Assembly (NCBI GenBank): GCA_016191645.1
Contig: JACPVQ010000260.1
Coordinates: forward strand, 1 to 39,018
Length of the DNA stretch: 39,018 nucleotides
Reading direction: 5' to 3'
Source of the DNA: Candidatus Solibacter usitatus
GTDB taxonomy: Bacteria; Acidobacteriota; Terriglobia; Bryobacterales; Bryobacteraceae
This document shows, piece after piece, positions 3,459 to 19,772 of this stretch. Within the stretch, counting starts at the first letter, position 1; each line of letters starts with the position of its first letter. The translations under genes were made by a program, and so were the position numbers. Below the pieces are notes generated by a model. That model was not told the origin of the DNA, did not search any database, and was given only the letters and a program-made list of their open reading frames with translations.

Positions 3459-3537
3459 GGCAGAGGCGGTCTGGAGATCTGCCACACAAAATCGGCGAGT
3501 GTCCAAACTCCAGGGGCGGTCTGGAGACCACTCTGCC
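3459..3537. repeat. Two degenerate copies of the palindromic TGGA-loop repeat
   Basis: At 3459-3487 the left arm of the first hairpin (GAGGCGGTC), the TGGA loop and the right arm of the second hairpin (GATCTGCC) are joined directly and followed by ACAC. This looks like a deletion between the two hairpins of a complete unit. A second remnant with GGTC-TGGA-GACC lies at 3518-3529 and keeps CTCTGCC afterwards. Both sit between the start of the sigma factor gene and the divergent TIM-barrel gene. Confidence 0.7.
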
Positions 3538-16851: not shown

Positions 16852-16964
16852 TATTATCGCTTAGGTTTGTGGGTAACGGCTTGGCGGTGGGAGTTGCGAC
16901 GGCGGCGCGGACCACGCACGATGGCCCCTTCGCGGGACTTGAGTTTGGACAATTCCCGCGTTTG

Positions 16965-17014
16965 TGTGGGGCAGATCTCCAGATCTGCGAGCCGGTCTCC
17001 AGACCGGCTCTGCC
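16965..17014. repeat. Two-hairpin palindromic repeat, inverted (copy D)
   Basis: Read on the plus strand, the order is the mirror of copy A: TGTGGG, the hairpin 16971-16988 (GCAGATC / GATCTGC, loop TCCA), the hairpin 16989-17010 (GAGCCGGTC / GACCGGCTC, loop TCCA), then TGCC. The larger stem has C:G where copy A has G:C at the fourth position, again with both sides changed. Confidence 0.88.
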
Positions 17015-17037
17015 TGAGGTAATCGCAATCTCCCGGG

Positions 17038-17133
17038 CGGCTGCAAAGCAGCCGATGGCCTCTTGCGAGGCCATGCGGGATCTGGAGATCCCGCTGCAGA
17101 TCTGGAGATCTGCCCCACATCGATCTCCAGATC
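17038..17133. repeat. Array of four adjacent hairpins plus a remnant (copy E)
   Basis: Four perfect hairpins follow each other with at most one base between them: 17038-17054 (GGCTGC / GCAGCC, loop AAA), 17055-17074 (ATGGCCTC / GAGGCCAT, loop TTGC), 17075-17094 (GCGGGATC / GATCCCGC, loop TGGA) and 17096-17113 (GCAGATC / GATCTGC, loop TGGA). CCCACA follows, then a reversed remnant GATC-TCCA-GATC at 17122-17133. The array ends 9 bp before the stop of the selenoprotein gene and may terminate its transcript. Confidence 0.85.
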
Positions 17134-17142
17134 AGGAGCGGC

Positions 17143-18180
17143 CTACTGCTTGCGAAGTCCCGCCGGCACGCGCTCGGAATCCATGCGCGTCAATTCCAGT
17201 TCCCACTTCAACGGCACGGTTTCCGGTGGATAACAGAGGCGGTCATTGCAAGCCTGATAGCGCAGACCCGCTTCGATGATCACTTTGTTGCCTTCGCCCA
17301 TTGCTCCGCGCAGGGCTTTATCCGGGCCCATGGTGACATCGCGCAGCAGCCGGATCTTCCCTTCGAAAACCGGAACCTTCTCCTTGATGGCTTCCAGATA
17401 CAACACGCGCGATTTTGGATACACCACCTCGTGCGCTTTCGCCAGCGGGGTTTCGGGCATCTTCCATTCCGTCGCGATGTAGCCTTCCACTCCGGGGGCG
17501 TAGAGATGAAGACCCTTTGCCATCTCAATCTCCACGGCCAGCAGGATTCGCTGCCCGTGCGAGATTTTTTCCGTGCTCGCGGTTGTCGTTATCTTGACGT
17601 GCTTGGCTTGCGGCGTTCCCTTGGCCGATCCCGGGGCGATACCGTAATCCTTCGCCAGCAAGCCAGCCAGCGTCTGCCGTTCCTTATAGTCTTCCTCGAA
17701 ATACTTCGATTTCACGACGCCGCCGTGATCGGTAACAAACGTCACCGGATGCGGAATCCCGTGGAAGGCATGCGTCTTGGGAACGCTTTCATTGAGGATG
17801 CCGAACTCGCGAATGGTTTTCGAATCGGCGTCGGAAAGAAGCGGGTATCGGATCTTTCTGCGCTCGGCGAAGTTCTTCAGAATCGCTTCCGAATCGTAGC
17901 TTACGGCGGCCAATTCCAAACCCTGCTTGCGGAGTTGCTCCAGGTTTTGATCCAACTCGACCAGTTGGGTTTTGCAGTAGGGTCACCAATCGGCGGAGCG
18001 AACAAAGACCAGCATCAATCCTTTTGGTCCGCGCAAACTCTCCAGAGTCTGCGTCTTCCCGTTTTGATCGCGCAACTGGAAAGCCGGCATCTTCTCGCCT
18101 GCTTTGATCCCAGGGTCTTTGGGGACGGCTTGACCCCATAACGCCGTTGTGACTGCCAGCACACTAAACAGCATCTTCAT
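17143..18180 (-). CDS. Periplasmic UxxC redoxin (selenoprotein) fused to a DsbD-N-like domain
   Basis: 345 residues from ATG 18180, read through one in-frame UGA at 17985-17983 (codon 66). A signal peptide MKMLFSVLAVTTALWGQA is followed by an AhpC/TSA-like thioredoxin fold: MPAFQLRDQNGKTQTLESL, then LMLVFVRSADW-U-PYCKTQL, and the cis-Pro loop HGIPHPVTFVTDHGG (Pro145). In related redoxins the UGA position is Cys of a WCxxC motif, so the active site here is Sec66-Pro-Tyr-Cys69. Residues about 190-335 resemble the DsbD N-terminal (alpha) domain, with the Cys311/Cys316 pair in YQACNDRLCYPPETVPLKW. The frame has no other stop and remains coding on both sides. A SECIS-like hairpin lies just downstream of the UGA. 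Likely a periplasmic thiol oxidoreductase or peroxidase; the reaction is not established. A nonsense mutation is the alternative. Confidence 0.85.
17952..17968 (-). promoter_or_regulatory. SECIS-like hairpin for UGA decoding
   Basis: In the mRNA the stem CCAACU pairs with AGUUGG (6 bp, no mismatch) around the 5-nt loop GGUCG. The stem begins 14 nt after the last base of the UGA, and the loop GG stands at positions 24-25 counted from the U of UGA. Bacterial SECIS elements have a short stem whose apical loop starts with G within about 16-37 nt of the UGA; E. coli fdhF uses loop GGUCU at nearly the same distance. The hairpin lies inside the coding sequence, as bacterial SECIS elements do. Confidence 0.75.
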
Positions 18181-18218
18181 ATGATCTAGAATCCCACGAG
18201 ACAACCTTGTTATTCCAA

Positions 18219-19772
18219 CTATCCTGTTAATTTCTTCAGCGCCACTTCGCACAATTCGAAGAACCGGGCGCGCTCGCGCTCCGACGGAAACACCAACGGC
18301 GCGGTGCGGTAGTATTCCACCTCTTTGCGCCAACGATCGGCGGCATTGCGGCGCGCCTGCGAGTCCGGAGCCGATCCATCCCATCGCATGTAGCGCGGAT
18401 TCGTGTGCGCCTGGATCTCCGTTGTGCCCGCCACGTCAGGGTCCGCCAACGCGCGCGCCGCCACCCAAACCGGACCTTGCGGCGGGATCGACGCCGAAGC
18501 GCGCAGCGACGCGCCCGCCTTTGCACTGGCAATCACTTTCCCGTTGGCGACAATTTCCAGCTTCGTCATTGGGCGGTAGAACTTCGCCTCGGCTTCCAAC
18601 TGCCCGGATTGCTCATTCAAGCGCAATTCGATCAGCGGCCCGTTGGTGACCACGCCTTCGCCGCGCTTCACTGCCGCCGCCCAGGTTTCGTAGGCCGATG
18701 TGCCTGCCGCCGCTTTCACCAGCATCCGCTCCGGTCCCAACAGGGGAATCCATCGCGACCATTTCTCCAGCTTCGTCGCATTATTCACGTTCACCGGAAA
18801 GTCGCTGCCGGCGACTCCCGTCAAACGGAATCCGGCGTTCAACAGTTCGTACCACTGTTCCGTACGCAACCGGCCAAATTGAAAAACCTCCGCGAAGTCC
18901 AGGTTGCCCAGCGCCAGATCCATGAGCAATGCCGAATTCTTCTGCGATCCGTCGAAGTGCGCATATCCAACCAACGCGCCCAACTTCCGCCCCATTCCAA
19001 AAAGCACGTACGGGTAAGGAAATGTTTCAGGGGAATTCGAGTAGACTGTCCCCAAACTCAAGGGACGGATCATCTCGCGCCCACCTAAAACATTGACATG
19101 GCCAAAGAACGCCGAACGCGATTCATGACCGGGCCGAATGGAACGGCCGCCGCGTTTCGCCTCGGCCTGCGGCCCATATCCATATTGCGAAGCCGCGTCC
19201 ATCTGACGCTGTAGCTGCAAGAAGTTGGCTACGGTGAGATCTTCCGCATCCATCCAACTGAGGAAGACGGCATCGTCTTCGCGGTCGCGCACAAGGTGGA
19301 TGTGATCGTCGCTGGAGATCCACTTTGCGCCTTCGCCGGCAGTCCAATCCTCCATCTTCAGAACCGCGCGCGTCTGCTTGCCGGCTTCCAACGTGAACTC
19401 CGCTGAGAAGGGCTTGTAGAAAAGCCCGCGGTAGGCTTCCACCCGGTAGTTCCCCGCCGGCAAATCGAAATTGGCGCGCCCCTTCAAAAGGAAGAAGTGC
19501 GAAATGTCGTTGCACGTCACTTCCAGCACGGAAGGGTTCGCGCCGCGCCGCCACAAACGCTCGCGATAAAAAAGGTCGACGCGCAGCGGAAGCATCGCAT
19601 CGACGGGACTCAGCCGGAACGGCTTGCCGTCTTTGAACAGGTAGACACGCGCGGGCATCAGTGGTTCGGTCGCCAGTTCCAGATGTCCGGCAATCTCGCG
19701 CAATCCCGATTCGCGATATTGCGTCCAAGCTAAAGCGACGCCAAACACCGCTACCAGCCAGCCTCGTTTCAT
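18219..19772 (-). CDS. CehA/McbA-like metallohydrolase (PHP-type)
   Basis: 517 residues. The N-terminus MKRGWLVAVFGVALAW is a signal peptide or anchor. A beta-sandwich-like part (FDLPAGNYRVEAYRGLFYKP and FSAEFTLEAGKQTRAVLKME) precedes the metallohydrolase domain, with ISSDDHIHLVRDREDD (HxH metal site), DLTVANFLQL, LVGYAHFDGSQ, and GVAGSDFPVNVNNATK followed by TNGPLIEL. This layout fits the exported CehA/McbA family, named after carbaryl hydrolase; natural substrates are unknown in most members. It starts 4 nt after the DUF418 gene and ends 38 nt before the selenoprotein start, so cotranscription is likely. Confidence 0.82.
   Translation of the reverse strand: MKRGWLVAVFGVALAWTQYRESGLREIAGHLELATEPLMPARVYLFKDGKPFRLSPVDAMLPLRVDLFYRERLWRRGANPSVLEVTCNDISHFFLLKGRANFDLPAGNYRVEAYRGLFYKPFSAEFTLEAGKQTRAVLKMEDWTAGEGAKWISSDDHIHLVRDREDDAVFLSWMDAEDLTVANFLQLQRQMDAASQYGYGPQAEAKRGGRSIRPGHESRSAFFGHVNVLGGREMIRPLSLGTVYSNSPETFPYPYVLFGMGRKLGALVGYAHFDGSQKNSALLMDLALGNLDFAEVFQFGRLRTEQWYELLNAGFRLTGVAGSDFPVNVNNATKLEKWSRWIPLLGPERMLVKAAAGTSAYETWAAAVKRGEGVVTNGPLIELRLNEQSGQLEAEAKFYRPMTKLEIVANGKVIASAKAGASLRASASIPPQGPVWVAARALADPDVAGTTEIQAHTNPRYMRWDGSAPDSQARRNAADRWRKEVEYYRTAPLVFPSERERARFFELCEVALKKLTG

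Follow-up and report, generated by a model that had tools for sequence, protein, structure and literature searches.

A predicted selenocysteine redoxin with a DsbD-type N-terminal domain in Candidatus Solibacter usitatus and its acidobacterial relatives

A gene on the minus strand of a Candidatus Solibacter usitatus contig (JACPVQ010000260.1 of assembly GCA_016191645.1; the whole stretch analysed, positions 1 to 39,018, is called the window) carries a single in-frame TGA. Comparison of sequences indicates that this codon is almost certainly read as selenocysteine (Sec), with tRNA-Sec and SelB as the decoding factors and a SECIS hairpin 20 nt downstream as the guiding signal. Taken as a whole, the gene is best explained as probably encoding an exported protein of two domains, in which a Sec-bearing redoxin is combined with a putative built-in relay of the DsbD type. 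An earlier sequence-only reading of the same DNA had proposed an exported redoxin selenoprotein. The TGA-interrupted frame on which it was built is confirmed and its selenoprotein interpretation is supported, although the strand (minus) had been left out, no SECIS had been named and the second half of the protein had not been recognised as a DsbD N-terminal domain, a point that alters how its function is read. The features of the gene are collected in Table 1.

Table 1. Features of the predicted selenoprotein gene in the window
Feature	Position	Strand	Basis
Whole selenoprotein gene, ATG at 18180 to TAG at 17143, 345 codons + TAG, one in-frame TGA	17143..18180	-	Translation, Pfam, relatives
Probable signal peptide, MKMLFSVLAVTTALWGQA	18127..18180	-	Inspection; cleavage after A18 by eye; hydropathy
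AhpC-TSA/redoxin domain, residues 26-170	17671..18105	-	PF00578 E 7.1e-31, PF08534 E 6e-19; Foldseek matches to Bcp, AhpE, ResA
UGA codon 66, predicted to be read as selenocysteine, first of U-P-Y-C	17983..17985	-	Cys/Sec pairing, SECIS, tRNA-Sec
Cys69, second position of UxxC	17974..17976	-	63/63 aligned proteins
Predicted bacterial SECIS core, stem 17968-17963 with 17957-17952, loop GGUCG 17962-17958	17952..17968	-	Fold -7.9 kcal/mol (not distinctive); covariation
DsbD N-terminal (nDsbD/ScsB alpha) domain, residues 208-321	17218..17559	-	PF11412 E 7.8e-10; 63/63; Foldseek
C311-x4-C316 (QACNDRLCYPP), invariant Cys pair of DsbD_N	17233..17250	-	63/63; 18-residue match to own DsbD

At the level of the reading frame, translation gives 345 residues interrupted only at codon 66, behind which 279 further codons follow without a stop. 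As the earlier reading had stated, the UGA occupies the first CxxC position of an otherwise continuous redoxin frame (RSADW-U-PYCKTQLVELDQNL, site motif W-U-P-Y-C), and a gene caller does produce two fragments from it, the list of open reading frames under translation table 11 giving 17143-17955 (270 aa, TTG start) and 17983-18384 (133 aa, ATG start). Because the frame continues without a stop on the 5' side of 18180, the ATG start was assigned from homology and from the signal-peptide-like N-terminus. A single Pfam redoxin domain crosses the TGA (PF00578, residues 28-157), as do the alignments of the relatives, and the codons 3' of it show purifying selection (omega 0.14-0.22 against seven relatives, with dS near saturation). 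A scan of the window for TGA-interrupted Cys-like sites returned 12 places, 17985 among them, and Rfam models gave no match above their cut-offs over the window. The plus-strand frame over the same interval was also considered and is unrelated to the selenoprotein gene. The signal peptide claimed earlier is supported by inspection and hydropathy (mean 2.03 in a 10-residue window at the N-terminus) and, together with the envelope character of DsbD_N, suggests that the protein is exported. A hydrophobic N-terminus was found in 95 of 147 rows, a weak and crude hydropathy count in which duplicates were kept and starts were chosen by script.

To see how the TGA is distributed among relatives, 257 genomes of the order were searched in all six frames (E <= 1e-20). 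Matches were present in 124 of these genomes: 109 have one or more that carry a TGA in frame, 10 have Cys forms only and 5 have only partial matches without the site. The site was checked codon by codon in 70 fetched genes, a selection from the matches of the order that includes the window's own. One of them was unreadable (start missing, undetermined bases), and the 69 readable genes carry TGA in 58 cases and a Cys codon (TGC or TGT) in 11, within W-[UC]-x-x-C; the expectation of the earlier reading that homologues with Cys at position 66 should exist is thereby borne out. A second set, drawn from named loci and sharing members with the first, comprises the 80 best of 492 relatives, found with patterns that themselves include the motif of the site; it contains 71 TGA and 9 Cys codons. 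Both sets together thus have TGA or a Cys codon at the site in 149 of 150 gene loci, the remaining one being the unreadable gene. On a tree of 107 proteins, built with a quick method after removal of identical proteins and of those shorter than 300 residues, Sec and Cys were interchanged at least 11 times. Beyond the order, 55 of 396 genomes in a sample of the phylum match the profile at E <= 1e-40, and the record titles of the best 80 of the 492 relatives almost all name acidobacteria, in many cases Bryobacterales. Two UGA relatives on VFZE01 contigs of one metagenome-assembled genome (MAG) titled Acidimicrobiia (L108 and L133) fall among acidobacterial sequences in the tree, and mislabelling of that genome or gene transfer is possible.

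Downstream of the UGA, with its U numbered 0, a stem joins positions 17-22 to 28-33 and encloses a five-base loop, which starts 20 nt after the UGA. The bacterial SECIS model given in the accessible text of PMC13188914 comprises a loop of 3-9 nt, a stem of 4-16 bp, G in the first two loop positions, a distance of 16-37 nt from the UGA and a minimum free energy <= -7.5. The hairpin of the window agrees with it, with 6 bp, the loop GGUCG, 20 nt and -7.9 kcal/mol, this energy being unremarkable against shuffled sequences (z -0.47). After removal of identical proteins, five core pairs with G in the first two loop bases are found in 92 of 94 distinct UGA genes, and the core stem is intact in 2 of 15 Cys genes and lost in the other 13. 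The energy threshold over +3..+44 is reached by 93 of the 94 UGA genes and also by 8 of the 15 Cys genes, which means that only the core pairs discriminate and that the energy proves nothing. The comparative evidence is strong and includes covariation at the central pair, in which the third base of a Gln codon meets the first of a Leu codon, the changes on either side being synonymous. CAA occurs with TTG in 38 genes and CAG with CTG in 52, only 3 being mixed (1 and 2), so that 90 of 93 are matched (Fisher p 1.7e-22 with no correction for kinship). Compared with the same Gln codon, eight further Leu sites gave p 0.043 to 1, and in the rest of the gene the two Gln groups have similar shares of TTG (0.289 vs 0.246). 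When kinship was considered by means of 14 independent pairs across well-supported branches, 12.9 pairs on average changed the same way, 0 in the opposite way and 1.1 showed no difference (median p 0.00024 over 200 pairings).

The earlier reading had also credited acidobacteria of this group with selenocysteine genes and proposed to look for selA, selB, selD and tRNA-Sec in the genome. The source genome, a MAG in 267 contigs estimated as 79% complete, contains a tRNA-Sec with anticodon UCA (78.3 bits) and SelA (405.6 bits), but no match to SelB or SelD reaching the cut-offs was found in it. Among the 12 genomes of the genus, SelB is present in 10 (all except the source genome and G059) and SelD likewise in 10 (all except the source genome and G061), that is, each in 10 of the 11 congeners. 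The SelD of the genus has one in-frame TGA in all 10 matches (L181, L182, L183 and those of seven further genomes) and is probably itself a selenoprotein. At the level of the order, tRNA-Sec was found in 193 of 257 genomes and a SelB match at E <= 1e-60 in 206, 204 of them above the cut-off. Of more direct relevance, tRNA-Sec and/or SelB is present in 106 of the 109 genomes with the UGA form; the three in which neither was found at the thresholds used are G053 (79% complete), G101 (58%) and G089. The last of these, 99% complete with 7% contamination, stands as an exception, a UGA gene with neither component. Among the genomes with Cys forms only, 4 of 10 (G182, G189, G190 and G192) have neither and 6 of 10 have tRNA-Sec and/or SelB, a difference from the UGA genomes with Fisher p 0.0008 when kinship is ignored. 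Loss of the machinery may therefore explain some of the Cys forms, though not all of them.

These observations bear directly on two readings in which no selenocysteine is made. The TGA might be a nonsense mutation or a sequencing error, leaving a decaying gene or two separate fragments, as the two open reading frames under table 11 and the fragmented state of the MAG could suggest. However, the recurrence of TGA at the same codon in 94 distinct genes makes a sequencing error very unlikely, and the spread of TGA-bearing matches over the order, the purifying selection 3' of the codon and the covarying hairpin all speak against a pseudogene. This explanation is extremely improbable and was ruled out. 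It is also very improbable that the UGA is read as Trp or Cys through a changed code or a suppressor tRNA. Such decoding would agree with the open frame in the relatives, but 7 of 22 selected larger open reading frames of the window end in TGA, the site has TGA or a Cys codon in the readable loci, and the genome has tRNA-Sec(UCA) and SelA alongside a hairpin that fits the SECIS model. A changed genetic code was rejected on these grounds.

With regard to the protein, the AlphaFold model of the 345 residues has a mean pLDDT of 93.2 and a pTM of 0.86. Among the best PDB matches that Foldseek gave for the full model are Bcp, AhpE and ResA, aligned across some 140 columns, which is the length of the redoxin part, and ResA and Bcp also lead in the profile search. 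The UxxC lies at the start of a helix (WUPYC, helix 67-78 in the model), as the CxxC does in thiol:disulfide oxidoreductases of the TlpA/ResA/CcmG type. In an alignment of 63 proteins, consisting of that of the window and 62 from the best 80 named loci, the Pfam domains AhpC-TSA and DsbD_N are both present in 63/63, and C69, P145, C311 and C316 are invariant. P145 is a candidate for the cis-Pro that faces the active site in oxidoreductases of the TlpA/ResA/CcmG type. For the protein of the window, all NCBIfam models stay under their cut-offs: ResA PRK03147 scores 57.6 bits against a cut-off of 170 and DsbE TIGR00385 21 against 123.15, the peroxiredoxin models fall well short of theirs, and the other aligned proteins match the same kinds of families. 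The N-terminal domain is a redoxin resembling ResA and PrxQ, in which, to judge from their places in the UxxC, Sec66 is very probably the attacking and Cys69 the resolving residue. Two short UGA relatives with W-U-P-Y-C are L089 (G154) and L090 (G103), of 183 and 187 residues; the former has a redoxin domain without DsbD_N according to Pfam and is a possible stand-alone form. A Cys-form relative (L093 972-2294, G071) is fused to a histidine kinase (HisKA + HATPase_c) and is a possible redox-sensing kinase.

The redoxin named in the earlier reading and the position of its active site were correct, but the second half of the protein belongs to another family. PF11412 (DsbD_N) scores 39.3 bits there against a gathering score of 25. 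For the C-terminal part modelled alone (pLDDT 92.9), Foldseek ranks the N-domain of ScsB first (6c29, E 5e-5, TM 0.58) and the nDsbD of the meningococcus second (6dnv, E 1.2e-4, TM 0.51), both TM values being normalised by query length; unrelated beta-sandwich proteins appear at lower ranks. A profile of this domain found nothing among PDB sequences, its one match having E 0.33. Only seven columns of the domain are invariant in the 63 proteins, C311 and C316 being two of them. The genome also encodes a DsbD of its own (L180, 621 aa) with DsbD_N, membrane and thioredoxin domains, and the best local match between it and the selenoprotein is an 18-residue segment corresponding to the Cys loop (RYQACNDRLCYPP vs RYQVCNETQCLPP, E 4e-4 in a single comparison). 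Neither the membrane domain nor the C-terminal thioredoxin domain of DsbD gave a Pfam match in the 345 residues. Homology thus places the second half of the protein with the N-terminal domains of DsbD, and C311/C316 would, with good confidence, be its redox pair.

How the two domains might work together is suggested by the relatives of the second one. Within the known DsbD pathway, nDsbD passes electrons on, and because of this role a flow from DsbD through C311/C316 to Sec66-Cys69 can be proposed. Sec66 would attack the substrate and Cys69 would resolve the intermediate, giving a Sec66-Cys69 selenenylsulfide. In a proposal whose chances appear evenly balanced, C311/C316 would accept electrons from DsbD's membrane part and transfer them to this selenenylsulfide, so that oxidised thiols or peroxides of the envelope could be reduced. 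Reduction of envelope oxidoreductases by DsbD and ScsB is described in the accessible text of PMC5403849 and PMC5909903. An alternative is that the selenoprotein is mainly a periplasmic peroxidase with the DsbD-type domain as its private reductant, in line with the PF00578/PF08534 and PrxQ/Bcp/AhpE matches and with the scavenging of envelope peroxide by ScsB, TlpA and PprX reported for Caulobacter (PMC5403849, accessible text). Against it, and besides the low scores of the peroxiredoxin models of NCBIfam, the peroxidatic signature PxxxTxxC is missing: counting to Cys69, the Pro slot is S62 (62/63) and the Thr slot is residue 66 itself (Sec or Cys, 63/63). Counting to U66 for the Sec form of the motif, quoted as PxxxTxxU in the accessible text of PMC13188914, F59 and A63 are found in the Pro and Thr slots. 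Because PxxxTxxC is lacking, a canonical peroxiredoxin is unlikely and a mainly peroxidatic role appears doubtful, while some peroxidase activity of the Sec redoxin is possible.

The nDsbD-like domain could also serve only for docking or as a structural element, exchanging no electrons with Sec66, which another thioredoxin would then recycle. Compatible with this are the remoteness of the matches to solved nDsbD and ScsB and the lack of a gene-neighbourhood link to DsbD: in 81 loci, many with short flanks, no widespread neighbour pointed to DsbD, the widest cluster covering 12/81, and the window is in none of the 18 clusters listed, which were defined without family annotation. Yet the invariance of both C311 and C316 in a domain with so few invariant columns makes a purely passive role unlikely. 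Returning to the relay from DsbD to the Sec site, a broader and more tentative extension of it, which we favour slightly less than not, would be a selenium branch of the DsbD reducing pathway contained in one polypeptide chain. The redoxin would bring its own electron-accepting domain of DsbD type, the transporter would feed the Sec site directly without a separate thioredoxin, and the protein would act as a lineage-wide envelope antioxidant whose Sec-to-Cys switches came after some lines had lost their machinery for selenium.

Redoxin selenoproteins with UxxC are already known, and it is the fusion with DsbD_N that is apparently undescribed. Prx-like thiol:disulfide oxidoreductase selenoproteins (PF00578, UxxC/UxxU) are tabulated in PMC13188914 and PMC9312934 and counted in PMC1794560; they share with the present protein a redoxin with Sec at the first UxxC position, but in the accessible parts of these papers they are given by the redoxin domain alone with no mention of DsbD_N. 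A selenoprotein listed as Redoxin family protein (PF08534, UxxC, HEU0032618.1; PMC13188914) has the same Pfam superfamily and motif, its architecture is not given in the accessible text, and it could be a relative or even a member of this family. The Prx-like 3 fusion of the GOS survey (PMC2398784) also joins a UxxC redoxin to a Cys-bearing second domain; as described in the accessible text, however, that domain is Unknown_3 with three conserved Cys including a CxxC, whereas here it is DsbD_N with two Cys as C-x4-C. The N-terminal domains of DsbD and ScsB resemble the C-terminal domain in their Pfam family, Foldseek ranks and Cys loop, but they lie N-terminal to a membrane domain instead of C-terminal to a soluble redoxin. 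In the ScsB-TlpA-PprX system of Caulobacter, a DsbD-type transporter likewise feeds envelope redoxins, although through separate proteins and with no selenium mentioned in the accessible text of PMC5403849. No description of a redoxin-DsbD_N selenoprotein fusion was found in the literature searched, including the accessible parts of PMC13188914, PMC9312934, PMC1794560, PMC2398784, PMC12013277 and PMC5029168.

These results are relevant in several respects. Given that the list of open reading frames splits the gene and that no NCBIfam model attains its cut-off, this acidobacterial redox enzyme of the envelope has probably been annotated in pieces. The fusion would also connect the use of selenium in bacteria with the DsbD/ScsB pathway, and the natural Sec/Cys pairs of the family, some of them in genomes without detectable tRNA-Sec and SelB, offer a way to ask what selenium adds outside the cytoplasm.

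Next to the gene, a cluster of short palindromes with inverted arms of up to 20 nt occupies 16931-17142, between the selenoprotein gene and a gene for a SurA-like PPIase. Allowing <=1 mismatch, the window contains 7 copies of the 12-mer GATCTCCAGATC against 0.23 expected, among them copies at 3468, 5166 and 11135, and this 12-mer looks like an interspersed extragenic palindrome.
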